Source: Candidatus Tenderia electrophaga
Lineage (GTDB): Bacteria > Pseudomonadota > Gammaproteobacteria > Tenderiales > Tenderiaceae
Assembly: GCA_001447805.1 (NCBI GenBank)
Contig: CP013099.1
Span: forward strand, 3,047,181-3,111,180
Length of the DNA: 64,000 nucleotides
Direction of reading: 5' to 3'
A program made the position numbers and the translations under genes. Of the stretch, positions 22,201 to 39,955 are shown piece after piece; position 1 is the stretch's first letter; every line of letters starts with the position of its first letter. The notes under the pieces were generated by a model. It was not told the origin of the DNA. It searched no databases and worked only from the letters and a program-made list of their open reading frames with translations.

Positions 22201-23118
22201 ATCAATTTCGTCAAGAAGCCCATGCCCGCCGGCCTGCCCATGCAGACCATGCGCGCCATGTTGGGTGTGGAAGACAATAAGGTGGTCCCTATCCTGCGCG
22301 ATCCGGCCAAGGTCACCGACGACAGCGACGCGCTGTTCTACTTTCCGGGTTGCGGCTCCGAGCGCCTGTTCAGTGAGATCGGTCTGGCCACCCTGGCCAT
22401 GCTCTACGACAGCGGTGCCCAGACCGTGCTGCCGCCCGGCTATCTGTGTTGCGGCTATCCGCAGACCTCGGCCGGCGATCGCGCCAAGGGCAACAAGATC
22501 ACCACCGACAACCGGGTGCTGTTCCACCGTGTCGCCAACACGCTCAACTACCTCGACATCAAGACGGTGATCGTCTCCTGCGGTACCTGCATGGATCAGC
22601 TGCTGAAATACGAGTTCGAGAAGATCTTCCCCGGCTGTCGGCTGCTCGACATCCACGAATACATGCTCGAGCAGGGTGTGCGGCTTGAGGGCGTTGAGGG
22701 TACGCAGTATCTTTATCACGATCCCTGTCACACGCCCATGAAGACCCATAACCCCATCAAGGTGGCCTCGACGTTGATGGGGCAGGACGTGCAGCTGTCC
22801 GACCGCTGCTGCGGCGAGGCGGGCACCTTTGCGGTTTCCCGTCCCGACATCGCCACCCAGGTGCGTTTCCGCAAACAGGAGGAACTGCACAAGGGTATAG
22901 AGTCCCTGACCGGTGAACCTAAGGCCGAGGGCGGCAATGTGAAGTTGCTGACCTCCTGCCCCGCCTGTCAGCAGGGCCTGTCACGTTACCGTGAGGACAC
23001 CGGTGTGGAGGCGACCTACATTGTCACTGAGATGGCCGGCAAGCTGTTGGGTGACGGTTGGCAGAGGCGCTTTGTCGAGCGCGCCAAGCAGGGCGGTGTT
23101 GAACGGGTGTTGTTGTAG
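19264..23118 (+). CDS. Large FAD-linked oxidase/Fe-S oxidoreductase (DUF3683 family)
   Basis: 1284 residues. The N-terminal DUF3683 region ('[22 protein letters not shown]', '[20 protein letters not shown]') is followed by a FAD PCMH domain ('[17 protein letters not shown]', '[19 protein letters not shown]') and a lactate/glycolate-oxidase C-terminal domain ('[16 protein letters not shown]', '[10 protein letters not shown]'). Two 4Fe-4S motifs follow ('[11 protein letters not shown]', '[13 protein letters not shown]'), then CCG cysteine-rich domains ('[10 protein letters not shown]', 'CCGYPQ', 'CGTCMDQ', 'CCGEAGTF', 'CPACQQG'). Architecture resembles D-lactate or D-2-hydroxyacid dehydrogenases fused to a heterodisulfide-reductase-like module. 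Substrate unknown. It is monocistronic as far as can be seen. Confidence 0.92.
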
Positions 23119-23185
23119 GGTGCGCACAGCGCACCAGTTTCTTTCGCGGACGGCAATGTAACGCAGAGGTTTTGTATAAATCATT

Positions 23186-23241
23186 CTCTGCGCCTCTGCG
23201 CCTCTGCGCCTCTGCGCCTCTGCGCCTCTGCGCCTCTGCGC
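23186..23241. repeat. 8-bp tandem repeat, seven copies
   Basis: Seven perfect consecutive copies of CTCTGCGC in the short space between the 19264 gene and the chemoreceptor gene. It is non-coding. The flanking sequence has the complementary run ACGCAGAGG at 23162-23170, so the region could fold. Copy number is likely variable. Confidence 0.9.
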
Positions 23242-23306
23242 TCTTTGCGTTTCTTACACCTACCTTGCTATAGCTGCATCAGGGTTATGGCTGCGCTGTG
23301 CGCAGC

Positions 23307-25337
23307 CTACACACTGATCTTGAACTGACTCACCAGCCCCTGTAGCTGGGCTGCCAGTTTGGCCAGCTCTTCGCTTGCCGCAGTCGTCTGCGCTGCACCG
23401 GAGGCGTTGCTCTCCGCCAGGGAATGGATATTGGTGATGTTCTTGTTCATCTCTTCGGCGGTGGCGCTTTGTTCTTCGGCGGCGCTGGCGATCATGGTGT
23501 TCATCTCATTGATGGTGCCCACCGCCTCGGTGATGGCCTTCAGCGCAGCGGCGGCCTGCTGGGCCTGCTCCACACTCTGCTGCGCGGTCTGGGTGCCTTG
23601 GGTCATGGTGCTGACCGCATTGTGGGCACCGCTTTGCAGCTTGGTGATCATCTCCTCGATCTCGGACGTGGACTGCTGGGTACGCGCTGCCAGGGTGCGC
23701 ACCTCGTCGGCTACCACGGCAAAGCCGCGACCCTGTTCACCGGCGCGGGCGGCCTCGATGGCGGCGTTCAACGCCAACAGGTTGGTCTGGTCGGCGATGT
23801 CCTTGATGACGTCGAGGATGGTGCCGATGTTTTCGCTTTCCTGCGCCAGGCCTTGAATCACGCCGGCGGCGTTGCCGACCTCGCCGGCTAAGCGATCGAT
23901 AGTGCTGCTGGCGCCCTGTACCACCGTGAGACCGTTTTGCGCCTCGTTGTTGGCGGCGCTGGCGGCGTTGGCCGCGTTGCCGGCGTTGTTGGCCACCTCG
24001 GTGACTGTCGCCGACATCTCGTTCATGGCGGTGGCCACTTGATCGGTTTCGCGGCTTTGCTGTTCGATGTTGCCCGCGGTTTCATTGGCCACCGCCGAGA
24101 CTTCCTCGGTGGCACTGGCCAGTTGATTGGCGGAGTTGATGATGCTCTTGATCAGTTCTTCGATATGGCCGGCCATGTCATTGAAGTTGGTGGCGATCTC
24201 CTGCATCTCATCGCGGCTGTTGAGCCGGGCGCGGGCGGTCAGGTCGCCCTTGGCCATGGCCTGGGCGGCGGCGCGGATCTGGTCCGCCCCGGTGTGCACC
24301 GAAAAATAAAGGCCGGTGAAGAGATAAGCAACCACCAGCAATACCGAGACGACGATGGCGATGGCGATAATCTCCTGCCGGATGTAGGCGTCGACACGTT
24401 CGGCAAGCAGGTCGTCCATCACGGGCAGGGCCTTGTCGAACAGCTCGAAGGCATTATCGATGGCCTTGGTGCTGGCGTTGAACACCGCGCCGCTATCCAC
24501 GGTGATGTTTTCCGTGTCGAGAAGCTCGCGCGTCAATAGGTTTTCGAGGGTGTCGATGGCGTGGTCGTTCTCGTCGATGAACTGCTTCAAGGCGGCGGCG
24601 ACATCGGGATTGTGGTCCATGGCAGACTCGAGACCGGCATCAAGGCTGTTGTTGTTGGCGTTGATGCGATCCACCAGTACCGACAGGCGCACCGCCTCCT
24701 TTTGCCCGATTTGACCCTGGGCGGCAATACTGGAGCCGAGGGCGCGCGATTGTCCCATGGCCTCGGTCAGCAGCGGTAGCTTGCTGACCAGGGCATCGCC
24801 CAGATAATAGGTGTCCAGTTCCGGGTCGAGCGTGATCTCGGATTTGTCTGCGATATGCATCAGCAGCGCCAACAGGTCGCTGATCATTTGCGTGTGGGCG
24901 CGGATGCTGTCCGCGGCCTGCATGTGCAGCGAATTGTTCTTGATGTTATGCCACTGCGCCTGGATATCGCTGACCATTCCGGTCGTGGCCAATGCCGTGC
25001 CCAGCGCCTTGTCGGTCGCCGTCAATAATTCGAACGCGGCATCTGCATCCTCACGCTTCTGCGTGATTCTGGATTTAAAACCAACATCGCCGTTGAGATA
25101 GGCCGCGGTCATGCCGCGGTGTTGTTGGATCTGGGCGATCAGTGGGCGTACGTTCTTGATGTAGCTGAGGCCGTTACGTTCGTTCTTGAAAAGCTTGATT
25201 TCGTCATTGACGTTTGCGATGAGCAGGTAGCTGAGCGTGATCAGCGGGATCATGATCAAGACGAAGATTACGGTGAACTTCACCGGATAGCGGAAGCGAT
25301 CCATCAAGGCGGTAGCGGGGTTGAATAGTTTTTTCAT
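23307..25337 (-). CDS. Methyl-accepting chemotaxis protein
   Basis: 676 residues: a membrane helix at about 20-40, a periplasmic helical sensor region (about 41-330) with '[15 protein letters not shown]', which resembles the start of nitrate/nitrite-sensing (NIT-like) four-helix domains, and a second helix at about 330-352. A HAMP domain (to about 400) precedes the long coiled-coil signalling domain with the invariant hairpin tip '[34 protein letters not shown]'. It would report a periplasmic ligand to CheA/CheW, but no che gene is nearby. Ligand unknown. Confidence 0.94.
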
Positions 25338-25480
25338 TGTGAGGTCTCGTCCGTCTTATGCAGGCGCTGATTCATGAGTATGGAATATGCCAACAGATAT
25401 CGGCGGCCGCCGCGGCAGGCTTTAGCGACATGCCCTTTTGCTTGCTACACGTGCCTGGACAGAATTGATAGAGCGGGCGT

Positions 25481-26461
25481 TTAACTCGGCGGCAGGAAGT
25501 TGATGGGGAAGTCGATGCTGGTGGTTTCCACATCCTTGGCGCCGAAGTTGATGCGCTTGATGCGCAGCGCCAGTTTGCGTTCCAGGGCCTCATCGTTGAG
25601 CTCCGATTCCAACACGGTGCATTCGGACACCGAGCCGTCAGGCTGGATGACGATGCGGAACAACACCTTACCCTGCAGGAACGGATTTTTGCGCAGGGCA
25701 CGTTGATAAATACTGTCGATGGCGCTGTAGTTGGCCATCATGGTCTTCTTGATCTCGTCTTCGGAGCGACCGCGAGCGTCCTGAGGCGCGCCGGTGGCTA
25801 CTTCGATTTCCTCGATCTCGCTGTCGACCTGGGTGGTCTGGCGGCCGGTCAGTTCGTTGTCGCTGGCGTTGCGGCTGAACCCGGAGGTATCGATGCCGCC
25901 GCTGCCCTTGCCGGCCTTGGCGGTGAGTACCGAGCGGGCCTGGGCGCGCTCGCTGGTCCCCTCGGTCTGCAGCGGCTTGGTGGCCTGCTTGAGGTCTTCC
26001 ACGGGCTTGGATTCGCGCAGGTCGGCGAGCATGTCCTTCATGGCCAGCACGCCGGTACTGGCGGCCTTCTGGCGGATTTCCTCGACGCTGCGTTTGGGCT
26101 TGGGCTCGGGTTTCGGCTCTGGCTTAGGCTCGGGTTTCGGTTCTGGTTTCGGTTCTGGTTTCGGTTCCGGCTTGGGCTCCGGTTTCGGTTCCTCGACCTT
26201 GGGCTTTTCCGGTTCTACCGGTTTGGGGGGTTCCACCTTGGGCGGCTCGACCTTTTTCTTTTCCAGTAGCATCTTGGCCAGCCGCGGCGGGATCTTCTCG
26301 GCTTCGACCCGGTCACGTTCGGGCAGGTCGATGAAGGGAAAGATGAAGCTCATGATCAGCGCCAGCACCAGACAGACGACGACGATAATACGGAAACGCC
26401 GTTCCACCTCGGGGGAGGCGGACCAGGGCAGGGCCAGGTTGTAAGGTAAAACTGCTTTCAC
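25481..26461 (-). CDS. TonB-like protein with AgmX/PglI C-terminal domain
   Basis: About 326 residues from GTG 26461 ('MKAVLPYNLALPW'; a GTG at 26482 overlapping exbD is an alternative). One membrane helix ('FRIIVVVCLVLALIMSFIFPFI') is followed by a Pro/Lys/Glu spacer of repeated PKPEPKPE units (about 85-125). The C-terminal domain is 'IDSIYQRALRKNPFLQGKVLFRIVIQPDGSVSECTVLESELNDEALERKL'. This AgmX/PglI type is TonB-like, with proteins of this kind linked to ExbB/ExbD motors in gliding bacteria. It lies directly downstream of two exbD and one exbB genes, so it should transmit motor force to the envelope proteins of the same operon. Confidence 0.88.
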   Translation of the reverse strand: MKAVLPYNLALPWSASPEVERRFRIIVVVCLVLALIMSFIFPFIDLPERDRVEAEKIPPRLAKMLLEKKKVEPPKVEPPKPVEPEKPKVEEPKPEPKPEPKPEPKPEPKPEPKPEPKPEPKPKRSVEEIRQKAASTGVLAMKDMLADLRESKPVEDLKQATKPLQTEGTSERAQARSVLTAKAGKGSGGIDTSGFSRNASDNELTGRQTTQVDSEIEEIEVATGAPQDARGRSEDEIKKTMMANYSAIDSIYQRALRKNPFLQGKVLFRIVIQPDGSVSECTVLESELNDEALERKLALRIKRINFGAKDVETTSIDFPINFLPPS

Positions 26462-26465
26462 TGAA

Positions 26466-26963
26466 CTAACCTTGTGTCCCACCCTTCTTGGAGACTGCCA
26501 ACGAGATGTTGTTGTAGTTGACGCTGTTACACGTGATCATGATTTTCTTCAGCAGGCGATAGGGGATATGCTTGTCGCCCAAAATGGTGATTTCGCGACG
26601 CGCCTCTTGCTCCGCCGGGATGCGGCTGCGGCCGGCCTGGTATTCCAGTTCTTGTTTCAAGGCCGCGATGAGGTTTTCATCGCTGGCCAGCACTTCGTCC
26701 ACCGAGGCCACCTTGCGACCCTGCACCAACAGGTCCTCCTCGCTCACCATGATGAACAGGGTTTCCTTGGGGCGTTGCTCGGCGATGGATTCGGGCAGCT
26801 GGATCTCCTTGGTGTTGGGGATGTTCTGCACGTCGGAGGAGTTCACCAGCAGGAAGAACACCAGGATGGTGAAGATATCCATCAAGGACACCAGATTGAT
26901 GGCGCTGCGTTTCGAGCGTCCGTGATGGCGCTGCATGCGCCGGGCCCTGCGCGACATCTTCAT
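26466..26963 (-). CDS. ExbD/TolR-family motor protein 1
   Basis: 165 residues: a basic N-terminus ('RRARRMQRHHGRSKRSAINLVSLMDIFTILVFFLLVNSSDV') with the essential membrane Asp in 'SLMDIFTIL', and a periplasmic domain ending 'ITILGDKHIPYRLLKKIMITCNSV'. It forms a proton-driven motor with the ExbB-like protein at 27486. It is spaced 2 bp from the second exbD. Two non-identical ExbD subunits per ExbB, as here, are also found in the AglRQS motor of Myxococcus. Confidence 0.92.
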   Translation of the reverse strand: MKMSRRARRMQRHHGRSKRSAINLVSLMDIFTILVFFLLVNSSDVQNIPNTKEIQLPESIAEQRPKETLFIMVSEEDLLVQGRKVASVDEVLASDENLIAALKQELEYQAGRSRIPAEQEARREITILGDKHIPYRLLKKIMITCNSVNYNNISLAVSKKGGTQG

Positions 26964-26965
26964 GG

Positions 26966-27481
26966 TTAAGGCTTTCCTTTCGCCGCTGGCGCGTCACCCA
27001 GGGCGATGTCGGGGAACAATTCGGCCTGGACGGTCTTGTCGTCGCGTTTCAGTTCGATCAGGCGCGTGGCGTCCATGACGTGGATCAGGCGTTCGTAAGG
27101 CACGTCCGGTTCCAGTAGCAGGGTGGCGACGGTCTCGTCGGGAAAGCGCGCCTTGAGTTCACGCAACAGCTCGCGCAAGGCCTTGAGATCATAGCCTTCC
27201 TCCTCGCTGATCAGCGGAATGCGCTTGAGCACCCGGCCGGGGCGGTCGCCCACCACCAGCGTGTCATCGCGCAGGATGATCTCGAGCTGGAACTCGGGCG
27301 GCGTTTGATCCGCGCGGGTCTCCTCCGCCGACTGCTCCGGCAGGTTCATCTCCAGGATGTTGACCTGGTTGAACACCGCTGTGATGAGCAGAAACGGCAC
27401 CAGGATCACCATCAGATTCATGAAGGCGGTAATATCCAGCTCCGGCGCTTGCCGGTGGGCACGACGAAAACGCGATCTCAT
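26966..27481 (-). CDS. ExbD/TolR-family motor protein 2
   Basis: 171 residues: 'RSRFRRAHRQAPELDITAFMNLMVILVPFLLITAVFNQVNILEMNLP'. Here the motif has 'LDITAFMNLMVIL', so the usual helix Asp is shifted or replaced (N at the expected position, D at the helix start). That suggests a subunit with a changed proton-binding role. The periplasmic domain 'ALRELLRELKARFPDETVATLLLEPDVPYERLIHVMDATR' is typical. It is co-transcribed with exbB upstream (4 bp gap) and exbD1 downstream. Confidence 0.9.
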   Translation of the reverse strand: MRSRFRRAHRQAPELDITAFMNLMVILVPFLLITAVFNQVNILEMNLPEQSAEETRADQTPPEFQLEIILRDDTLVVGDRPGRVLKRIPLISEEEGYDLKALRELLRELKARFPDETVATLLLEPDVPYERLIHVMDATRLIELKRDDKTVQAELFPDIALGDAPAAKGKP

Positions 27482-27485
27482 GGGG

Positions 27486-28133
27486 TCAGCCCGCGCTGCT
27501 GTCCTTGGTGATGATGTTGAGGAATTTCACCGCCGCCATTTCAAAGCTGTCCACCAGCTCGGTGGTCTTGGTGCTGAGGAAGGCGTGCATCAGCAACAGC
27601 GGGATGGCCGCCATCAGGCCAAAGGCGGTGGTATTCATGGCCACCGAAATACTGGAAGACAGCAGGTCGGCCTTTTGCGACGGATCGGCGCTGGCCACGG
27701 CGGTGAAGGCCTGGATCAGACCGATAATGGTGCCCAGCAGGCCCATCAGCGTGGCGATGTTGGCCAGGGTGGCGAGGTAATGGGTGCGCTTTTCCAGGCG
27801 CGGGATAACCTCCATCAGGCCTTCTTCCATGGCGGTCTCGATTTCGTCGCGGTGTTGGGTGCGTTCCTTGATGCGGGCCAGGCCGTAGGCCAGCATGTGA
27901 GAGATGGTGGCCTTGGACTTGGCCGCCAGTTCGCTGGCCTGATCGAAATTGCCGGCCTGGATCAGGGGCACCACGTTGTTCCACATCTTGCGGCTTTTGC
28001 TCTTAGCCGACTGCAAGTAGATAAAACGTTCGATGGCAATGGCGAGGCCCACCGCGAATAGCAGTAGGATGAAATACATGAAAACCCCGCCTTCCTGGAA
28101 GAAGCGCACGATTGTGGAAAAAGCGTCCATCAT
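27486..28133 (-). CDS. MotA/TolQ/ExbB proton channel family protein
   Basis: 215 residues with three membrane helices: 'GGVFMYFILLLFAVGLAIAIERFIYL', then 'LATLANIATLMGLLGTIIGLIQAFTAVA' and 'ISVAMNTTAFGLMAAIPLLLMHAFLSTKT'. The GLLGTxxGLIxaF and NTTAxGLxxAIPxLL motifs are the ExbB/TolQ core. It starts the motor part of the eight-gene operon (order of transcription: 33965 down to 25481). In principle it could also serve the tonB at 1.5 kb, whose own exbB is broken. Confidence 0.93.
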   Translation of the reverse strand: MMDAFSTIVRFFQEGGVFMYFILLLFAVGLAIAIERFIYLQSAKSKSRKMWNNVVPLIQAGNFDQASELAAKSKATISHMLAYGLARIKERTQHRDEIETAMEEGLMEVIPRLEKRTHYLATLANIATLMGLLGTIIGLIQAFTAVASADPSQKADLLSSSISVAMNTTAFGLMAAIPLLLMHAFLSTKTTELVDSFEMAAVKFLNIITKDSSAG

Positions 28134-28213
28134 TGTCTCCTTAGAGCACTTACTTGAGATTGGATAATTGCGTTAAAAAATAGCGGGATCTATCGTAAAC
28201 CCGCCAGTATAAC

Positions 28214-28537
28214 TCATGGTTGTGGCGTACGCTGGCTTTGCAGGATCAGCTCATGATAGCGGATCTGGCGGCGAAAGATTTCCGGATCGATCGGTTCCAG
28301 CACGTCGCTGGCCAGGCTTTTGCTGGCGGGCATTTCGATCTCGCCGGGCTGGCGCCGTTTCCACGGCACGATGTAGAGCACCTTGGGCAGCTCGCTCTGG
28401 CCGTAGACGTTCATGCCCTCGGATTGCAATTGTACCTCCGCGTCCTGGGGCGCGGCAGCGCCCGGCAATAGCGCCAGGCAAAGAACGGCGGTGCCCGTAC
28501 TTAAGGTTCGATACGCCGGCTTAGATCTGCGATCCAT
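28214..28537 (-). CDS. Small secreted protein of the motor operon
   Basis: 107 residues with an N-terminal signal-like segment ('TLSTGTAVLCLALLPGAAAPQ'). The body contains 'SELPKVLYIVPWKRRQPGEIEMPASKSL' and 'LEPIDPEIFRRQIRYHEL'. I do not recognise the family. It overlaps the preceding TPR gene by 37 bp and lies 80 bp before exbB, so it is part of the same transcript. The neighbours suggest an envelope role with the motor complex. Confidence 0.72.
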   Translation of the reverse strand: MDRRSKPAYRTLSTGTAVLCLALLPGAAAPQDAEVQLQSEGMNVYGQSELPKVLYIVPWKRRQPGEIEMPASKSLASDVLEPIDPEIFRRQIRYHELILQSQRTPQP

Positions 28538-29172
28538 ATTTGTACCTGTCTGTCATCCGGTTTCAGTTCAATATAGCGCTGATAATATTCCAGCGCCGCT
28601 GCGGGGGTGTTGAGATACAGCTCCAGCAAGATGCCGGCGTTGCGCAGCAGGTTGCTGTTGTTCGGTGCGATCTCCAGCCCTTGGCGATAAGCCTCCAGGG
28701 CCTTGTCAAAGCGTCCGTCGCGGCGGTATAGCATGCCCAGGTGATTGTAGATTTCCGCATTGCCGGGGTTGAGTTGCTGCGCCCGCTTCAATGCTGTTTC
28801 GGCCGTTTCGTAGTCTTTTTTAGCCAATAGCACCGCGCCCAGGTTGGCATAGGGGCCGGGCAGGTCGGGGTAGCGCTGGGTCATGTCATAAAAAATGGCC
28901 TCGGCCTGGTCGTAGGCCTTGGCCTGCAGGGCCCGCACGCCGCGCTCGAACTCGCTCACCACGGCCGAGGGCAGGGCCGGCTTGTCGCTTTGTTGTGTGC
29001 CCGCCGCTGTACTTTCCGGTTGCGCGTCGCCGCCGCTGGTTGCCTGCTGCGCGCTTGCGCCAGTGGGGGGCTGCGGGGCGCCGGTACTGCTGCAGGCCCC
29101 GAGCAGGGCCGTCAGGCAGACGATGCCTACGCCTCTAATTAGCTGTCGTGGCGGCAAGATCATGGGTTTCAT
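28501..29172 (-). CDS. TPR lipoprotein of the motor operon
   Basis: 223 residues from ATG 29172 (a longer frame begins upstream, but this start places a lipobox, 'CLTALLGACSS', at the right distance). After a Thr/Ala/Gln-rich linker come about four tetratricopeptide repeats: 'AEAIFYDMTQRYPDLPGPYANLGAVLLAKKDYETAETALKRAQQLNPGNAEIYNHLGMLYRRDGRFDKALEAYRQGLEIAPN' (landmarks). It would sit at the outer membrane periplasmic face as an assembly scaffold. It is comparable in type to GltE/AglT of Myxococcus, though not demonstrably orthologous. Confidence 0.86.
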   Translation of the reverse strand: MKPMILPPRQLIRGVGIVCLTALLGACSSTGAPQPPTGASAQQATSGGDAQPESTAAGTQQSDKPALPSAVVSEFERGVRALQAKAYDQAEAIFYDMTQRYPDLPGPYANLGAVLLAKKDYETAETALKRAQQLNPGNAEIYNHLGMLYRRDGRFDKALEAYRQGLEIAPNNSNLLRNAGILLELYLNTPAAALEYYQRYIELKPDDRQVQIWIADLSRRIEP

Positions 29173-31969
29173 TCCTCGCATAACGGGCCGGCACCAATTT
29201 GGCCAGGGCGCCGATGCTGCGTTCAATCCAGTCGTTGTAGATAGCGCCGTCGGTCATGCGGGCGATATTGGTTTCGTGCAGTTCGATGGCCTGTTCCTCG
29301 AAGGGGAAGGCCTGCTCTTCCAGCATCAGCTCGTATTGCTCCATCTCTTCGTCATCGAGGTTGGTGGGGCGATCCGAGTCGAACAGTTTGCGGCTGAAGT
29401 CGGCATACATGTCGGCGATGCGGAAGGTGGCGGCAGTGGTGTATTCCGCCACGCCCAGTTCGGCCGCCTTGTTGTAGGCCTCCAAGGCCTGTTTCATGAG
29501 CTGGTTTTTTAGCTGCATATTGGTGCGGATGGGCTCGACCAGTTCGATCTTGGCATAGCGCTCGTAATGGGGCTCGGCCAGTACGAAGGCGGCCTGCGCC
29601 GCCAGATAGCGGGTGCGATGGGTGCGCTGCGGACCGCCGCTGTGGTCGGCCTCGTAGATCTTCTCGAGTTGAATGCGATAGTAGTTGTCGCGGCCGACGG
29701 CCTTGTGCATCAGACCGGCCTTGTAGAGGGCTTCGATGGCCGGCTCCAGCGGGCTGGGAAACATTTCGGCATAGGCGTTGTAGGTGGTGGCGGCCTTGTG
29801 TCGGTCGCCGGCTTCTTCATACAATTCGGCGGCCTGCCACAGGGCCTCGCGCTTGGCTTCGGGCGAAGCGGCATTGTCGACGATGTCACGCAGCGCCTCG
29901 GCGGCGCGCAACGGGTCCTCCAGGCGCATATAGGCCACCGCCAGTTTTTCTTCCACATCGTTGATCAGCGCGTGCTTGGGATGATTGCGTTTGAAGGCCT
30001 CCAGGGCGTCGGCGGCCTGCTGCCACTGGTCGAGGATGATGTGGGTGGTGGCGATGTCGAATTCGGTCGTGGCGCGGATGGAGGCGTTGGGTACGGTCTC
30101 GATCAGGCGTTTGAATTCTTCGATGGCGCTGGTGACGGCGCCACGGGCGCGGAAATGCTCGGCCTGTTTATAAATACTGGCGGCCAGGCGTTCGCGCACC
30201 TCTTCCTGCAATGGGTCGTCCTCGCCGATGAGCAGGCGCAGCTCTAGATAGAATAGTTCGGCGATTTCGAAGTTCTGCATTTCGAACTGGGTGTTGGCCA
30301 GCACGACGAGGGCGGTGCGGCGGATGTCGGCATCGCTCTTGGGATAGCGGTTGAGGATGGTTTCCGCCGCCATGACGGCATCGCTGTAATGGCGTCCCTC
30401 GTAGAGTTCGTGGGCCGCCTTGGCCAGTACCGCCGGTGCCCTGGGATCCTTGGAGAAGACCTTGGCGAAGGACAGTGCGCTTTGCAGGGCGGACTGGCCC
30501 CAGGCCTTTTTGTCGGGACCGGTGAGTAGTTTGTCCTGCTCGGTATAGGCCACCAGGGCGGCGTAGCCGGCTTCGGCGGCGTCGTCATGGGTGCCGTATT
30601 CATAGGCGGTGCGTTCGAACTCGCGCGCCGCTTCGCCGTAGAGCTTGTCTTCGAACAGGGCCTCGGCCAGCAGGAAGTTGATGTGCGCTGCATCCTCGCC
30701 CCGGGGGAAGTGGGCGAGATAGAGTCGGTACCAGTCGGCGGCCTCCTGAAAGTCGAGCAGGTTGTCGGTTTGCTGGGCCTTGGCGTGGTGGTACTGGGCG
30801 GTATCCAACAGGTGGACCTTGAGGCGCGCGCGTATCCGGGACTGGCTTTGGTTGTCGCTCTTGAGCAGGTAGCGGTAGTAATCGTTGTGGACCGTCTTGT
30901 CGAGGTGTTCGCTGAGGATATCGTAACGGCGTACGAATTCCTTCTTCGCTGCGACGATTTCCTGTTTGGACTTTTGCGTGGTGTAGATATCGATGGCCTT
31001 GTCATGCAGGATCAAGGCGTAGGGGTGCCAGGGGCTACGATCGAAATATGAGCTATAGATCGCGGCGGCGGCGAGCGGCCGCTCCTGTTTGAGATAGAGT
31101 TCAGCCAGCTTCTGATAGACGATGAACTCGTAGACCCGCGCGGATTTACCGCGCAGGTAATTGGTGAGCGCATCCCTGTCGCCCTGCATGGAGATGCACA
31201 GGGTGACGGCGCGAAAGCTGTCGTTGATCAGTTCGACGTCGGAACGCGAAAGATATGCCATTTCGGCCAGTTCCGCCGGGGTGATGTTGCGGCTCAGTTT
31301 TAGATCGAGCACGGTAAAGAACGGGTCGAGCGACGCGCGGCAGCGGTCTTGCTTATAAATGGACCAGGCGTATTTGAACAGGGCCTGCTCGTAAAAGCGG
31401 TTGTTGACCTGGCCGCGGCCGACGATGCCGGCGTAGGCGATTTCGGCGTCATCATAGCGGCCCTCCTGGAACAGCAATTCGCCCAGGCGGAAGCCGACCT
31501 CGTCGGCGCGCTCCGAATTGGGATAGTCGCGCGCGAAGATCTTCAGCGCCTTGACCGCCTTGTCCAGGCGGCCGCTGTGTTCGTAGGCGCGCGCCAGTTG
31601 ATAGATGATGATGTCACGGTCGTAGTAACGCGGATAACGGGTCAACAGCGTTTGATAGGCATCGATGGCCTTGGCGTAGCTTTCCGGGGTGACGTGTTCG
31701 CCGTCGCCTTCTTCATAAAGCCGGTCGATGCGTTGCATTTCCAGGTCACCGAGACGGCGCAGGGCCTTTTCGCTCAGTTCGGCATCACCGCTTTTTTGAA
31801 TCAGTTCTTCATAGGCCTTGATGGCGTCGTCCACCGACGCCGTTACCGGCGCGTCTTTTTTAATCTCGATGGATTTACCCTTGAGGCTGCCCAGAGTATC
31901 GCTGCCGCTGGTGCTGCAGCCGGCGATCACCAAGGCGAGCGGCAAGGCGACCAGTGCACGAGGCTTCAT
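29135..31969 (-). CDS. Large TPR-repeat lipoprotein (944 residues)
   Basis: Signal peptide with lipobox ('LALVIAGCSTS', Cys at residue 18). More than ten TPR-like repeats fill the length, for example 'AIDAYQTLLTRYPRYYDRDIIIYQLARAYEHSGRLDKAVKALKIFARDYPNSERADEVGFRLGELLFQEGRYDDAEIAYAGIV' and 'AEHFRARGAVTSAIEEFKRLIETVPN'. Proteins of this architecture scaffold envelope complexes. It overlaps the next gene (28501-29172) by 38 bp and the previous one (31966) by 4 bp, which implies tight co-expression. Confidence 0.88.
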   Translation of the reverse strand: MKPRALVALPLALVIAGCSTSGSDTLGSLKGKSIEIKKDAPVTASVDDAIKAYEELIQKSGDAELSEKALRRLGDLEMQRIDRLYEEGDGEHVTPESYAKAIDAYQTLLTRYPRYYDRDIIIYQLARAYEHSGRLDKAVKALKIFARDYPNSERADEVGFRLGELLFQEGRYDDAEIAYAGIVGRGQVNNRFYEQALFKYAWSIYKQDRCRASLDPFFTVLDLKLSRNITPAELAEMAYLSRSDVELINDSFRAVTLCISMQGDRDALTNYLRGKSARVYEFIVYQKLAELYLKQERPLAAAAIYSSYFDRSPWHPYALILHDKAIDIYTTQKSKQEIVAAKKEFVRRYDILSEHLDKTVHNDYYRYLLKSDNQSQSRIRARLKVHLLDTAQYHHAKAQQTDNLLDFQEAADWYRLYLAHFPRGEDAAHINFLLAEALFEDKLYGEAAREFERTAYEYGTHDDAAEAGYAALVAYTEQDKLLTGPDKKAWGQSALQSALSFAKVFSKDPRAPAVLAKAAHELYEGRHYSDAVMAAETILNRYPKSDADIRRTALVVLANTQFEMQNFEIAELFYLELRLLIGEDDPLQEEVRERLAASIYKQAEHFRARGAVTSAIEEFKRLIETVPNASIRATTEFDIATTHIILDQWQQAADALEAFKRNHPKHALINDVEEKLAVAYMRLEDPLRAAEALRDIVDNAASPEAKREALWQAAELYEEAGDRHKAATTYNAYAEMFPSPLEPAIEALYKAGLMHKAVGRDNYYRIQLEKIYEADHSGGPQRTHRTRYLAAQAAFVLAEPHYERYAKIELVEPIRTNMQLKNQLMKQALEAYNKAAELGVAEYTTAATFRIADMYADFSRKLFDSDRPTNLDDEEMEQYELMLEEQAFPFEEQAIELHETNIARMTDGAIYNDWIERSIGALAKLVPARYARNETHDLAATTAN

Positions 31970-33432
31970 TGCAGCCCTTCCTCCAGCTCGAAGGTGCCAC
32001 CTTCGATGGCTTGGGCGATGCCGAATTTGATTTGATCCACATGGCCGGCGAGTTGGGCCTGGTAGCGGCTCAGTGTCCTGAGCGCCTCTTGCTTGAGCTG
32101 TTTGAGCTGCAGCTGCCGGGCCTTGTCGATTTGCCGCCCGATGGTCTGGTGGCGCCGCTGAAGCGCGGCGACATCGGCGTCCATCCGGCTGCGATCCTGG
32201 TGTTGTTCAATGGCGCCGATGTCGCTCTCCAGCGACTCGAGTTGGGCGCCGAGTTTGATCAGGGCGCGATATTCCAGCAGGGCGGCCTGGAATTCCGGGT
32301 TGTCGAGCAGCAGCGGCAGGAAGCGTTGCTCCGGTGCTTCCGGGGTATTCTGCCAATGCTCGAGCCAGCCGGTCTCATCAGTCGGAATGGCGCTGATCAG
32401 CTTGGGAAACAGATCGCTGTTGATCTTTTTCTTGGCCTCGTTCATGTCCTGAGTATCGGCATCGATCTGCTTTTGTGCAGCCTGATAGTGCTCGATGGCT
32501 TGATTGAAGGCGCCGGCCTTAGCCAGGGCGTAGGGCACGGCCAGCATGGTTTCGTAGCCGTAGGCGCTGCGGTAGGGACGGCCTTCCAGTTCCATCCAGA
32601 ACACCAGGGCTTGTTCGTAGTTTTGATCGCTGGAATAGCTCCAGCCCATGCCCAGCAGAGCGATGTTGGACAGATGACTCTTGAGGCGCACCTTCTCCAG
32701 GTAGCCACGCGCCTTGTCGGGCTGACCGATCTTGAGCAGCGAATAGCCGAGCGCCAGGTTGGCCTGGTCGCGGATCGCCTCCACCTCCCGGTCGCGGCTG
32801 TCAGCCAGCCGGCCGATCTGGTGCAAGATCAGGGCGCCGTTTTTGTTGCGGTGCTCGATCAGCTGCACGCCGATGTTGAACAATTGATAGAGTGCCCAGC
32901 TCGATTCGTCGTTGATGCGCGGCAGGGCGGCGAGGGCCTCCTGTCGCTTGCCGGCCTCCAGCAGGGCGCGGGCGCGGATGCTGTCGCGTTCGACTCGCTG
33001 GGCCGGACTCAAACTGCGTTTGATATGGGTCAGCGATTGCAGGGCGGCGTCCATGCGCCCCAGCACGAGCTGCAGTTTGGCGTGTTCCAGCCAGGCGCTG
33101 TCGCGCATGCTTTGCGGGCCTACACTTTGGCGCGCCAGACGGGTATACATGGCGAGGGCTTCTTCATGCAGCCCCAGCCTGGCGAAATTGTCGGCCAGAA
33201 ACAGCCGGGCCAGGTCGCGGTCGTCGCCGAGGCGCTTGAGTTTGTCGGCCGCCATCAACATGGCCATGGCGCGAAACCGATCCCCTTCCCGGTACGTCAG
33301 GTAGGCGTGGCCGAGCAAGGGGTTGCTGATTTTTTCCGCCTCGAATTCTTCGCTGTGCGCCGCTGGACTGGCCGTGATACCGCCGAATGCCAGCGCCAGG
33401 GCGATAACGGCGTGACGGCAGCGCGCGCTCAT
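31966..33432 (-). CDS. Periplasmic TPR-repeat protein of the motor operon
   Basis: 488 residues with a signal peptide (cleavage near 'ASPAAHS'). The N-terminal half carries TPR-like repeats ('LTYREGDRFRAMAMLMAADKL', 'HEEALAMYTRLARQS', 'LAKAGAFNQAIEHYQAAQ'). The C-terminal third is a long coiled coil ('IKLGAQLESLESDIGAIEQHQDRSRMDADVAALQRRHQTIGRQIDKARQLQLKQLKQEAL'). Coding overlaps its neighbours by 4 bp on both sides. Function unknown, probably a structural partner of the lipoproteins. Confidence 0.85.
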   Translation of the reverse strand: MSARCRHAVIALALAFGGITASPAAHSEEFEAEKISNPLLGHAYLTYREGDRFRAMAMLMAADKLKRLGDDRDLARLFLADNFARLGLHEEALAMYTRLARQSVGPQSMRDSAWLEHAKLQLVLGRMDAALQSLTHIKRSLSPAQRVERDSIRARALLEAGKRQEALAALPRINDESSWALYQLFNIGVQLIEHRNKNGALILHQIGRLADSRDREVEAIRDQANLALGYSLLKIGQPDKARGYLEKVRLKSHLSNIALLGMGWSYSSDQNYEQALVFWMELEGRPYRSAYGYETMLAVPYALAKAGAFNQAIEHYQAAQKQIDADTQDMNEAKKKINSDLFPKLISAIPTDETGWLEHWQNTPEAPEQRFLPLLLDNPEFQAALLEYRALIKLGAQLESLESDIGAIEQHQDRSRMDADVAALQRRHQTIGRQIDKARQLQLKQLKQEALRTLSRYQAQLAGHVDQIKFGIAQAIEGGTFELEEGLQ

Positions 33433-33965
33433 TGGATCGCCGCCCAGGTGTCGTGGCGGTAGAGGATGTCCGGGCTGCGCTGCTGCAAGAGGGTGGTGAT
33501 GGTGATTTTCAGGTGGTCACGGCCGGGGGATTTGTCCAGCGCGAGCGTTTTGGTGACGCTGCGGCCGCTGCCGGTGACGGTGGTCTTGAGCACATGGGTG
33601 CCGGGCTGCAGCGCGATGACGCCCAATTCCTGCATGGCACCGCCGGTCAGTAGGTCCTGTTCCACGGCCGTCAGGTCGCGCTGGACCACGGTCTGGTCAT
33701 CCAGACTGATACGGATGCTTTGGATTTTCCCCTTGGCGGACGGAGTGATGTCGAGATAAAGGGCCAGCCCTAGCCGCTCCCGGTCTTGGAGTTTTTCTTG
33801 TGCCAGCAGCAGGTCGCGTTGCAGTTCCAGGGTGGCCTGCGTCAGCGCGGCGCGGTCGACGGTGTCGGCCGTCACGGGTTCGGCCGCCTGACTGTGGGAC
33901 AGGGGCAGCAGTACCAAGAGCAGGCGCAGCGAACGGGTAAGCGAGAGTGGTTTGGCCGACAACAA
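33429..33965 (-). CDS. Secreted protein, first gene of the motor operon
   Basis: 178 residues with a signal peptide ('LLLVLLPLSHSQA'). It has a short coiled coil ('ALTQATLELQRDLLLAQEKLQDRERLGLALYLDI') and a beta-rich part that looks like a carbohydrate- or Ig-like fold ('IQSIRISLDDQTVVQRDL', 'LGVIALQPGTHVLKTTVTGSG'). No family name recognised. It is the most upstream gene of the operon running down to 25481. Confidence 0.8.
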   Translation of the reverse strand: MLSAKPLSLTRSLRLLLVLLPLSHSQAAEPVTADTVDRAALTQATLELQRDLLLAQEKLQDRERLGLALYLDITPSAKGKIQSIRISLDDQTVVQRDLTAVEQDLLTGGAMQELGVIALQPGTHVLKTTVTGSGRSVTKTLALDKSPGRDHLKITITTLLQQRSPDILYRHDTWAAIQ

Positions 33966-34056
33966 GAAAAAACCTCTATTTTGATGCGGTATGGGGGGCC
34001 GCCCTACGACAAACGCATTACGTTATACCACACCCTTTTGCCGTTTTGCCAAAACG

Positions 34057-34078
34057 AAGGGGCCTGAAAAGGCCCCTT
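34057..34078 (-). terminator. Rho-independent-type hairpin after prk
   Basis: Perfect 8-bp stem AAGGGGCC / GGCCCCTT with a 6-nt loop, located 36 bp after the prk stop. On the minus strand it is followed by CGTTTTGGC, a short T-run. It likely ends the prk transcript and separates it from the motor operon. Confidence 0.7.
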
Positions 34079-34113
34079 GTCAATAGCACACGGCATGGCC
34101 GTCGCGGCTGAGC

Positions 34114-34986
34114 TTAGCTGGCGGTGCGCTTTTTCTCCATCATGTCGTGGATGATGGGTGTCAGCATGATTTCCATCGCCATCCCCATCTTGCCGGCCGG
34201 CAGGACCATGGTATTGGGGCGTGACATCCAGGAACCCTGCAGCATCTGCAAATAGGTGCTGATGTCGTGCTTCTTCGGATAGCGGAAGCGCACGACGCAG
34301 AAGCTTTCGTCCGGCGTTGGGATGTCGCGGGCGATAAACGGGTTGGAGGTATCCACGATTGGCACGCGCTGGAAGTTGATGTCGGTGCGCGAGAACTGCG
34401 GTGCGATGCAAGTGACGTAGTCAGGCATGCGGCGCAGGATGGTTTCGACCACCGCCTCGGCGGAATAGCCGCGCTCTTTGTTATCGCGATGGATCTTCTG
34501 GATCCACTCCAGGTTGACCGAGGGCACCACGCCTACGAGCAGATCGACCCACTGGGCTACGTCCACATCCTCGGTGACGACGCCGCCGTGCAGGCCTTCG
34601 TAGAACAGGATGTCTGAGCCCGGCTCCACGTCTTCCCAGGGGGTAAAGGTGCCGGGCTCCTGATTGTAAGGGGCGGCCTCATCCTGATTATGCAGGTACT
34701 TGCGTACCTTGCCGGTGCCGGTTTCGCTGTAGCTGCGGAACAGTTCTTCCAGTTTGTCGAAGACATTACCCTCGGGACCGAAGTGACTCAAAGTGCGGTC
34801 TTCGGCCAGGGCCTTGGCAACGGCTTCTTTCATCTCCTTGCGGTCGTACCGGTGGAAGCTGTCACCCTCAACCACGGCGGCCTTGATGCCTTCGCGGCGG
34901 AAGATGTGTTCCATGGCGTTCTTGACGGTCGATGTGCCAGCGCCAGACGAACCGGTTACGGCGACAACGGGATGTTTTCTGGACAT
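34114..34986 (-). CDS. prk: Phosphoribulokinase
   Basis: 290 residues from ATG 34986, with AAGGAGG just upstream. P-loop 'VTGSSGAGTSTVKNAM', substrate loop 'VEGDSFHRYDRKEM', 'HFGPEGNVFDKLEELF', 'FYEGLHGGVV', and 'WIQKIHRDNKERGYSAEAVVETILRRMPDY' match the proteobacterial (class I) enzyme. It makes ribulose-1,5-bisphosphate for RuBisCO, so the host very probably fixes CO2 by the Calvin cycle. RuBisCO itself is not in this window. Confidence 0.96.
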   Translation of the reverse strand: MSRKHPVVAVTGSSGAGTSTVKNAMEHIFRREGIKAAVVEGDSFHRYDRKEMKEAVAKALAEDRTLSHFGPEGNVFDKLEELFRSYSETGTGKVRKYLHNQDEAAPYNQEPGTFTPWEDVEPGSDILFYEGLHGGVVTEDVDVAQWVDLLVGVVPSVNLEWIQKIHRDNKERGYSAEAVVETILRRMPDYVTCIAPQFSRTDINFQRVPIVDTSNPFIARDIPTPDESFCVVRFRYPKKHDISTYLQMLQGSWMSRPNTMVLPAGKMGMAMEIMLTPIIHDMMEKKRTAS

Positions 34987-35265
34987 GGGGTCCTCCTTAA
35001 GCTCAAATGAGATTGCGAAATGGAAACCTGGTGGTATCACTCCCGCGGCGCTTGTGTCAGTGCCTTGCCAGTTGGGGCGGGGGGCTGCTCGTTATTGTTG
35101 ATGCCTGGATACTCGAAAGCGCGCCATTATACTACAACCCCTCGGATTTGCGATGTTTTGCCCGTGGTTTGCAGCCGGCTCGCGGATCTGCCGATATATT
35201 CGTATAGAGACGGTGTTTTGAAGCGCTTCCCGTCGGGCTTGCTAGAGGTGTTAAAGATTAACTGT

Positions 35266-36591
35266 ATGCTGTTGTTTTTAAGAAGGATTTTACGACCGCT
35301 CGGTTGCCTGCCGTTGGCCCTGATCGTGCCCCTCGCCCAGGCCTCGGCGCAACAAAATGAGGTCGAAAACGGCTATATCGAGGAGATCCGCTTCGTCGGC
35401 AATGACACGACCAAGCGGCGCATCATGCTCCAGGAGATGGTGATCCGCGCAGGCGATTCGGTCGACGCCGCGAAGATCGAGCGTTCGCGCCAGGCCATTA
35501 TGGACCTGGGCCTGTTCAAGTCCGTCAAGGCGCGTCTGCTGCCGGGACAGGAGGGCAAAATCCTGGAAATCGGCGTCGACGAAAAGATCTATATTATCCC
35601 CTTGCCGCAGCTGGACCGGGACGCCGACGGCGAGGTCAGTTACGGCGGCCGCCTGACGGTGGACAATCTGAATGGACTCAATCAGCGCCTTAGGCTGACC
35701 TATGAGGTGATAAGCGGCAGTTTCGCCAGCGATCGCACCGTCCATGCGGCGGATGTATTCTGGGATTATCCGCGTGTCGCCGGCACCCATTACGGCCTCA
35801 GCCTCGGGCTGAAGCGCGAGGTATCGCCGGAGTTGACCCAGGACAGCCTGGGAGAGACCGTGGCGGAGCATGATCGGATCTTTAATATCTTCGATGTCGG
35901 CGTGTCGCGCTGGCTCAGCCGCGAGGGCCCTTCGCAGGGCTGGAATGTGGGCTTTGGCACCTTCTGGCGCTACGAACTCCACGACCAGCAATTCGGTGTC
36001 CCCCTGGACCGGTCGCCGGAAAAGGCCGTGGGGATCTCGTTCGCCCTCCGTTATACCCGAGTGCACAATTATCTCTACAGTCGCGAGGGGCTGGAATACG
36101 GTTTCGTCAGCGACCACGGGTTGGTGGCTTTGGGCTCGGATACCCCCTATAGTCGCAATCACGCCTATTACCGCCATTATTTTCCCCTCGGCGCCATCCC
36201 GCAGCATCGTAACTTCAATTTGCAGTTGCGCTTCGGCGGCACCGGCGGCAGCGTGCCCATCGACGACTTCCCCTATATCCTGGGCGGCAGCCGCGACCTG
36301 CGCGGCTATGAAAAGGACGCCATTGGGGGGCGTTCCTTCTTCGTCGTCAACCTCGAGTTGCTGGCGCCCCTATGGGGATACAGCCCGGCGCGCGGTGTGC
36401 TCTTTGCCGATGTCGGCAACGCCTATGACGACAATCGCGTGATCGATTTCGGCGACCTCGAATCCAGCGTCGGTGTCGGTTTGCGTGTCAGGCTCAAGGC
36501 CTTCGTCGATCTGCAGCTGCGTCTCGACGTCAGTTACGCCTTCGGGCTGGAGCGGCGCAAGGTCTATTTCGGCAGCAAGAACACCTTCTGA
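35266..36591 (+). CDS. BamA/TamA-like outer-membrane protein (Omp85, single POTRA)
   Basis: 441 residues from ATG 35266, giving a signal peptide that ends near 'PLAQASAQ' (the frame is open upstream; a GTG at 35248 is possible). One POTRA-like domain ('IEEIRFVGNDTTKRRIMLQEMVIRAGD', 'SRQAIMDLGLFKSVKARL') precedes a surface-antigen D15 barrel with 'GGSRDLRGYEKDAIGG' (the conserved RxxxGY-type loop), ending in Phe. With one POTRA it is shorter than BamA or TamA. Role in outer-membrane protein or lipid handling is unknown. Confidence 0.86.
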   Translation: MLLFLRRILRPLGCLPLALIVPLAQASAQQNEVENGYIEEIRFVGNDTTKRRIMLQEMVIRAGDSVDAAKIERSRQAIMDLGLFKSVKARLLPGQEGKILEIGVDEKIYIIPLPQLDRDADGEVSYGGRLTVDNLNGLNQRLRLTYEVISGSFASDRTVHAADVFWDYPRVAGTHYGLSLGLKREVSPELTQDSLGETVAEHDRIFNIFDVGVSRWLSREGPSQGWNVGFGTFWRYELHDQQFGVPLDRSPEKAVGISFALRYTRVHNYLYSREGLEYGFVSDHGLVALGSDTPYSRNHAYYRHYFPLGAIPQHRNFNLQLRFGGTGGSVPIDDFPYILGGSRDLRGYEKDAIGGRSFFVVNLELLAPLWGYSPARGVLFADVGNAYDDNRVIDFGDLESSVGVGLRVRLKAFVDLQLRLDVSYAFGLERRKVYFGSKNTF

Positions 36592-38221: not shown

Positions 38222-39955
38222 AGTCTGTAGAAAAACCCAAATACAAGTCTCACCACCATCACTCGCCTCAGTTAATATTTTACTACTCCCCATTTGATCC
38301 AATCCTCACCGAGAAATAATACAGATCAATTCTTCCCGATACTTGAGACCTATTCCATTCGTTATGCCCCATTCCACGCATATCGGTGTATTTTAAATAT
38401 GTTGTGGATCATGCTAATCAATTGCCACTGACCGTTGACCTTCTGTTTTCCTCGCAGACTAAATCGCTTGAATCCTATACTGCTGGTGATATTTCCGAAT
38501 ACAGGTTCAACAGTGCCCAGTCGTTGGCTGTAGATATGCCGTCCCATGGCACTGTCGATCTTTTGTTTCATCTTCTCGATGAGACTGGTTTGTTGATGTT
38601 TTTTGGTGTTGCCTAGCTTTACGGCAAACTGGCGCGGGCTCTTTTGTTGCTCTGATCTGAGGCAGCGTTTTCTAAGATGACAGTGACGGCAATCATTTTC
38701 ATAGCCCTGGAATTTCATGAACAGGCTGTTGCCGATTTTTGTCTCTTCGCACTGCAACCACATGGCATTGCCGGCGGGACAGATACAGGTTTTGTGCTTG
38801 AGATCGACCTTGAATTCATTTGAGGTGAAGCGCTCTTTGGGCTTGAGCCGTGTGACGGGCTTGTGGCGTTCGTAGTCCTTGAAACGGGGATCGCGTGATC
38901 GAAAGCCAACATCGGCGATGTAGCCGTCGAGCTTTTCCTGATCCAGGTATTGCAAGGCGCTTAGGTTGTGATAGCCGCTGTCGGCGGTGATCTTGATCTG
39001 GCGACGCTCCTGCTTGTTGAGTTTGAGATTGGCACTGGCCGATTCGAGGCTGGGCTTGAGCAGGTTGTGCTCCTGACCTTGACCGTGGGCTTCAGCACTG
39101 ACGATGACCTGGTGCTTGGCGTCAACGGTGGCGACGCCGGTGTAGCCTTGAATGACGCCGTGACTGGTTTTCATCTTGGCGCTGTCATTATCAGTGATGT
39201 TGCTCTGTACGGTGCGACCACTGACGCCTTTGCGGTCGTCGTGGCTGTCGAGAAAGGCCTGGATCTTTTTGGCGGTCTTGGCCAGCTTTCGGCACTGTTG
39301 TTTTTGCCGCTCGACGATCGTTTCATCGAGACCATGCTTGTCTACTTCGCGATGTTTGCTGAGCATGCGCCGCACGGCCTTTTCCATTTTGAGCTTCTTT
39401 TTCTTAAGATCGGCCTGGGTGCCGCTCCACTCCTTGCTAGCATTGCTGGGCAGCTTGCAGCCATCGATGGCGAACATGTCTTTGCCGATCAGGCCTTCCT
39501 GGTCACAGACCATCAGTACCTGGAGGAACAGCTTTTCGATTTCTTGATGAGAGGAGGAAATAAAATCGGCGATGGTGGTGAAGTGAGGCTGACTATTGGC
39601 GGATATGGCTATAAATAGAATGTTATCGCGGCACAGCTGCTCGATCTTGCGGCTGCTGGTGATCCCTTTTGAATAGGCCAACAAAACAACCTTCAACAGG
39701 ATCGCTGGATCATAAGCTGGACGCCCGCCATCATCGTTTTTGTAGCGATGGTGAAAAATGGAGGGGTCCAGGCACTCTTCAATGAGATAGGTGAGATTGT
39801 ATTCGAAACTGCCGGGAAGTATCTGTCGATCAAACGACACCGGCAACATGGTCATCTGCTCGTAGCTGTAGTCTTTGAAGCGTGCCATCAATCCCCCCGA
39901 CGATGTTTTTATATATAGAGTGATGTTAGCAAATTTGGGGTTTTTCTACAGCCTC
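38222..39955 (-). mobile_element. IS1182-like insertion sequence, copy 2, inserted in attC
   Basis: Same 1734 bp as copy 1, in the opposite orientation. AACG (complement of CGTT) flanks it on both sides (38218-38221 and 39956-39959). On the array strand the order is attC arm, CGTT, IS, CGTT. It therefore has the same position and polarity relative to attC as copy 1. One base difference from copy 1 was noticed (38521). Confidence 0.87.
38362..39888 (-). CDS. IS1182-family-like DDE transposase, copy 2
   Basis: 508 residues, protein identical to copy 1 at 4249-5775, with the same GGGGGGA ribosome binding site. Catalytic acids as in copy 1 (NITDNDSAKM, ITADSGYHN, GTVEPVFGNI). Identity of two copies 34 kb apart makes them substrates for homologous recombination. 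Confidence 0.88.
   Translation of the reverse strand: MARFKDYSYEQMTMLPVSFDRQILPGSFEYNLTYLIEECLDPSIFHHRYKNDDGGRPAYDPAILLKVVLLAYSKGITSSRKIEQLCRDNILFIAISANSQPHFTTIADFISSSHQEIEKLFLQVLMVCDQEGLIGKDMFAIDGCKLPSNASKEWSGTQADLKKKKLKMEKAVRRMLSKHREVDKHGLDETIVERQKQQCRKLAKTAKKIQAFLDSHDDRKGVSGRTVQSNITDNDSAKMKTSHGVIQGYTGVATVDAKHQVIVSAEAHGQGQEHNLLKPSLESASANLKLNKQERRQIKITADSGYHNLSALQYLDQEKLDGYIADVGFRSRDPRFKDYERHKPVTRLKPKERFTSNEFKVDLKHKTCICPAGNAMWLQCEETKIGNSLFMKFQGYENDCRHCHLRKRCLRSEQQKSPRQFAVKLGNTKKHQQTSLIEKMKQKIDSAMGRHIYSQRLGTVEPVFGNITSSIGFKRFSLRGKQKVNGQWQLISMIHNIFKIHRYAWNGA

Follow-up and report, generated by a model that had tools for sequence, protein, structure and literature searches.

A nine-gene operon of Candidatus Tenderia electrophaga that probably encodes a gammaproteobacterial Agl-Glt core complex, with an Asn/Asp asymmetry in its two ExbD-type subunits

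In Myxococcus xanthus the motor protein AglR contacts GltG, and the motor drives both the Glt and the Nfs complexes (PMC3169522, PMC3858216). Luciano et al. (2011) defined aglR, aglQ, aglS, gltC, gltD, gltE and gltG as Group B genes, which cluster together with one additional gene in Gammaproteobacteria, Geobacter and others, and named the group a 'core complex' of unknown function that alone is unlikely to drive motility (PMC3169522). Here we analyse such a locus in Candidatus Tenderia electrophaga, within a stretch of 64,000 nucleotides (contig CP013099.1, positions 3,047,181 to 3,111,180), hereafter the window, to which all coordinates refer unless stated otherwise. Positions 25481-33965 of the minus strand form a single operon of nine genes in the order A-B-D-E-F-R-Q-S-G. 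This operon is a real and conserved member of a known, uncharacterised machine, and it probably specifies the gammaproteobacterial Agl-Glt 'core complex', a putative proton-driven envelope motor. An earlier note on this DNA had drawn the comparison with Agl-Glt; the comparison is correct, yet it was already published in 2011 (PMC3169522).

The nine products comprise two secreted proteins (A and F), a periplasmic tetratricopeptide repeat (TPR) protein (B), two TPR lipoproteins (D and E), an ExbB-type protein (R), two ExbD-type proteins (Q and S) and a TonB-like protein (G), with signal peptides and lipoboxes assigned by eye. The earlier note had listed one ExbB, two ExbD, an AgmX/PglI TonB-like protein, TPR proteins and secreted proteins, all of which were found in this interval on the minus strand; its title spoke of eight genes, a miscount of its own list. 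Its description of the genes as overlapping or closely spaced also holds, since adjacent genes overlap by 4 bp (A-B, B-D), by about 37 bp (D-E, E-F) or by 17 bp (S-G), while R-Q and Q-S are spaced by 2-4 bp, the sole exception being the 80 bp gap between F and the ExbB gene R. Purifying selection acts on each of the nine genes (pN/pS, the ratio of nonsynonymous to synonymous change, 0.07-0.55 against the same-genus relative L213), and the A-B-D-E-F-R-Q-S-G order recurs in loci of diverse gammaproteobacterial families, so that a chance origin of the operon is excluded.

The relationship to Myxococcus was established with profiles built solely from gammaproteobacterial copies, which were searched against Myxococcota genomes reached by one genome scan, the MglA part of whose query is matched at 100 percent by Myxococcus sp. 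CA023. These profiles match Myxococcus GltC-like, GltD, GltE and GltG in that order and AglR, AglQ and AglS in that order, the AglR cluster used (L186) encoding an AglR of 245 residues and an AglQ of 162 residues, as published. The ExbB/AglR-type motor subunit R (27486..28133, -; 215 residues; MotA_ExbB PF01618, E 1e-28) finds Myxococcus AglR at E 1e-50 and with 158-168 bits, against at most 80 bits for the next ExbB paralogues there. The ExbD-type subunits Q (26966..27481, -; 171 residues; PF02472, E 1e-15) and S (26466..26963, -; 165 residues; PF02472, E 7e-17) find AglQ at E 7e-24 and AglS at E 1e-30, respectively. The TonB-like protein G (25481..26482, -; 333 residues) carries the AgmX/PglI C-terminal domain (NF033768, 65 bits against a cut-off of 40) and its profile matches GltG-type open reading frames (ORFs) at E 5e-24 to 6e-10; a domain search detected no FHA domain in G, unlike GltG.

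The TPR proteins extend this correspondence to the periplasmic side. The profile of the GltD (AgmU) family lipoprotein D (29135..31969, -; 944 residues) matches Myxococcus GltD-type ORFs at E 2.7e-95, 3.9e-75, 7e-67 and 2.3e-47, and that of the GltE (AglT) family lipoprotein E (28501..29172, -; 223 residues), in which the lipobox Cys is invariant in the alignment, matches GltE-type ORFs near gltD at E 1e-33 to 2e-61. The GltC-like protein B (31966..33432, -; 488 residues) occupies the place that the GltC-like gene holds before gltD in the Myxococcus clusters, a gene which it matches at E 2e-8 to 1e-4 by hmmsearch and with a probability of 98.3 (E 3e-14) by hhalign, where other TPR families still reach 95 percent. 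The earlier note's proposal of an envelope force machine related to Agl-Glt is thus supported by the matches to GltD, GltE, GltG and AglR-AglQ-AglS with gene order kept, and similarity to Glt proteins, which it had made its test, is present. The resemblance holds for the core and fails for a full gliding machine, in that no GltA/B-type barrel was found and Q lacks the proton-site Asp.

The two small secreted proteins have no such counterpart in Myxococcus. Gene A (33429..33965, -; 178 residues), predicted to form an N-terminal helix and a beta-sandwich, is conserved in alignment among the gammaproteobacterial copies; it has no Pfam or NCBIfam match and no homologue in the Myxococcus clusters by profile search. 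Its AlphaFold2 model is fair (pLDDT, the per-residue score of the model, 80) and gave no significant fold match in the PDB (best E 2e-3), with weak likeness only to beta-sandwich adhesin and transthyretin-like folds. Gene F (28214..28537, -; 107 residues) is conserved across the gammaproteobacterial loci and stands at the gltF position, and its structure model is poor. Its identification as a GltF homologue was rejected for now, the hhalign probability being 0.1-0.2 against a set of three GltF-like sequences only.

The ExbB/ExbD/TonB domain architecture of the operon is also that of a TonB-type uptake energiser or a Tol-Pal-like outer-membrane maintenance system. We regard either role as quite improbable here. 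The equivalog cut-offs for TolQ, ExbB, TolR, ExbD and TonB are far from reached (TolQ, for example, at 71 bits against 221), and gammaproteobacterial R sequences, scoring 180-377 bits, are set apart from TolQ-like proteins at 131 bits or less. The conserved linkage is with GltC/D/E-type proteins, not with receptors or Pal, and the genome of the window encodes other ExbB-family proteins for such roles.

The most useful new point is a class-wide asymmetry between the two ExbD-type subunits. At the residue corresponding to the proton-site Asp (E. coli ExbD D25, M. xanthus AglQ D28), Q carries Asn22 (codon 27416..27418, -) and S carries Asp29 (codon 26877..26879, -), leaving Asp29 as the sole proton-site Asp of the pair. 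This pattern, first seen in 17 loci, that of the window among them, then in copies linked to type VI secretion and then throughout, holds in the alignment for 67 of 67 gammaproteobacterial motor loci including that of the window (with 65 different Q sequences and some overlap between a few loci). Myxococcus, Anaeromyxobacter and Sorangium have Asp at the proton site in both subunits; these Myxococcus rows confirm the Asn and Asp columns, E. coli ExbD serving for residue numbering. No published account of the asymmetry was found in a search over limited literature, and a term search of the main text of PMC3169522 found no mention of it.

In M. xanthus proton conductance is lost upon AglQ D28N substitution, as are motility and sporulation (PMC3858216). 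On that basis a Q homodimer is predicted not to conduct protons, and a motor built on Q alone should be dead. The dimer composition of AglQ and AglS, homomeric or heteromeric, is described as unknown (PMC9389320), and the two have been speculated to act hand over hand (PMC9120999). Since Q has Asn and S has Asp at the proton site, the gammaproteobacterial sequences favour an obligate AglQ-AglS heterodimer with one proton site per pair. With Asp naturally replaced by Asn in one subunit throughout the class and kept in the other, the AglQ/AglS pairing question becomes open to direct test, and the pattern suggests how a rotary motor for two protons can operate with a single one.

For assembly and force transmission we infer the following scheme. 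R and the Q/S pair would form a proton-driven inner-membrane motor, most likely working as a Q-S heterodimer within an ExbB pentamer, with only one site that carries protons. As protons pass through R and Q-S, G may be turned or displaced; being a TonB-like, GltG-related protein, G would pass the motion across the peptidoglycan to B, D and E. These GltC-like, GltD- and GltE-type proteins are the putative periplasmic and outer-membrane TPR partners, presumably in concert with A and F, the two small secreted proteins, and the force would then reach an outer-membrane or surface component directly or via a further partner. The output is most likely the displacement or ordering of such a component, and not gliding by itself.

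Distribution of the core was surveyed in a sample of 274 gammaproteobacterial genomes, in which co-occurrence counts are uncorrected for shared ancestry and some contigs end close to the clusters. GltD-type D is present in 63 genomes and AglR-type R in 60, always together with D; the three genomes with D and no R are all drafts. When counted by cluster, R lies within 8 kb of 60 of the 82 D clusters; the other 22 (e.g. L064 and L065) have no R at that distance, and these motorless clusters lie mostly in genomes that have a motor elsewhere, an arrangement like that of the Nfs complex of M. xanthus, which likewise borrows AglRQS (PMC3858216).

The core may be a portable force module at the service of a secretion or surface-assembly machine, the partner of the window operon then being encoded elsewhere in its genome; the separation of motor and core just described is the first of three observations in favour of this reading. 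The second comes from five other, related genomes, in which a complete type VI secretion system (T6SS) locus lies between or beside R-Q-S-G and D-E-F (L205/L206 on G009:C23, L203/L204 on G087:C5, L207/L208 on G146:C8, L202/L070 on G210:C69 and L258/L259 on G248:C13). In these loci R-Q-S-G adjoins a PpkA-type kinase gene and D-E-F, with B too where it was detected, adjoins ClpV. R is cut by a contig end in G248, and the motors of the other four genomes form one clade (support 0.97). A search over limited literature found no published link between T6SS and the Agl/Glt core.

The third observation is that many copies are accompanied by GltA/B-like barrels and DUF4266/DUF3570 flavin proteins. Directly upstream of A, six surveyed loci (L056, L059, L060, L061, L062, L068) carry a block encoding an SH3-domain barrel, a second barrel, a TlpA-like protein, DUF4266 and DUF3570 proteins and, in some, ApbE; both barrels are small outer-membrane barrels, and proteins of the DUF3570 and DUF4266 families are part of electron-transfer clusters associated with flavinylation (PMC8238504). 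The second barrel matches Myxococcus ORFs at the GltA/GltB (NfsA/NfsB) positions at E 3.5e-7 to 2e-3 by hmmsearch in a small set, and with a probability of 97 (E 1e-11) by hhalign, where a DUF3570 control gave 0.3. According to Luciano et al., GltA and GltB occur only in Myxococcales and Bdellovibrionales (PMC3169522); here the GltA/B-like second barrel occurs in 41 of the 274 genomes, every one of them D-positive, a restriction for which we found no prior report. In three genomes we also observed large lipoproteins of 909-981 residues with CxxCH haem motifs (L209:15923-18868:+, L211:916-3645:+, L212:12725-15526:-), whose genes either immediately precede the SH3 barrel gene or are separated from it by one gene.

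None of these partners adjoins the window operon. There is no T6SS association at this locus, and its genome falls in the barrel-less subset (22 of the 63 D-positive genomes), with no match to either gammaproteobacterial barrel profile or to DUF4266, a direct search with Myxococcus GltA/B not having been made. A portable module with its partner elsewhere in this genome is therefore, in our estimation, rather unlikely as the specific account of the window operon. A broader formulation for the class, in which the Agl motor of Gammaproteobacteria would work as an obligate AglQ-AglS heterodimer with one proton site per ExbD pair (an asymmetric 5:2 rotary motor), combined with a portable Glt core serving various envelope machines including T6SS, we consider plausible, if somewhat short of probable. 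With the core in 63 of the 274 sampled genomes, the barrel and T6SS associations, next in usefulness to the motor asymmetry, offer concrete leads on function.

Homology to Agl-Glt raises the further idea that the organism glides by this operon, under an MglA-like GTPase and the adjacent chemoreceptor. The genome of the window does encode an MglA homologue (43 percent identity, E 8e-44), found in only 9 of the 274 genomes. A methyl-accepting chemotaxis protein gene (23307-25337, -) follows G on the same strand, as a chemoreceptor gene also does in L213, L216 and L217. Luciano et al., however, argued that the core is insufficient for gliding (PMC3169522), no GltA/B-type barrel was found in this genome, and L214, L215 and L053 lack the chemoreceptor. 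Nor does MglA track D: as a co-occurring gliding regulator it was rejected, being present in 3 of 63 D-positive against 6 of 211 other genomes, with no association. Gliding by the window operon alone is unlikely, and a full gliding machine under these regulators is in our judgement most improbable. The MglA-like gene itself (L264:7734-8393:-, genome position C1:1555835-1556380) lies between histidine kinase and response regulator genes, with no adjacent MglB. Separately, the record L072, titled Comamonas sp. KCTC 72670, contains a Myxococcus-type MglA at 99 percent identity and is probably a mislabelled or mixed genome.

Several points weigh against the interpretation of the operon as an Agl-Glt core complex driven by a Q-S motor. 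The similarity between B and GltC is weak and partly generic to TPR proteins, G is without the FHA domain of GltG, and the barrel profile searches identified no outer-membrane partner in the genome of the window. S homodimers with Q as an accessory subunit would also fit the Asn/Asp pattern. Our literature search found no experiment on any gammaproteobacterial copy. In our judgement the core complex remains the probable reading.

Outside the operon, a phosphoribulokinase gene lies upstream and is followed by a terminator-like hairpin at about 34068-34090 (read by eye), after which the operon begins. An Rfam search of 23000-36000 gave no match, and a promoter scan returned sites no more numerous than in shuffled sequence. 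Elsewhere in the window two ORFs of exactly 509 residues each (4246-5775, +, and 38362-39891, -), each accompanied by a matching antisense ORF at a corresponding position, are probably two copies of one insertion element.

Comparison with described systems places the operon closest to the Group B cluster of Luciano et al., with which it shares homologues of aglR/Q/S and gltD/E/G, and more weakly a GltC-like gene, gathered together along with a gene lacking a Myxococcus homologue; the difference is that the extra genes number two here, for the secreted proteins A and F, and one there, neither A nor F matching the Myxococcus clusters. The M. xanthus gliding machine has the same AglRQS motor, GltG transducer and GltD/E periplasmic proteins, with GltC matched more weakly, whereas in the window motor and Glt genes stand in one operon, G has no FHA domain, no GltA/B-type barrel was found and Asn stands in place of D28 in the AglQ-type subunit. 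The Nfs sporulation complex of M. xanthus has NfsC/D/E/G-type genes ordered as B-D-E-...-G (probably the L180 cluster), and the two are complementary in what they lack: Nfs comes with barrels and without a dedicated motor, whereas the window operon has a motor and no barrels. Finally, TolQR and ExbBD-TonB belong to the same ExbB, ExbD and TonB superfamilies and to the same 5:2 motor class, from which the window operon is distinguished by two different ExbD proteins, TPR partners and scores well under the curated cut-offs.

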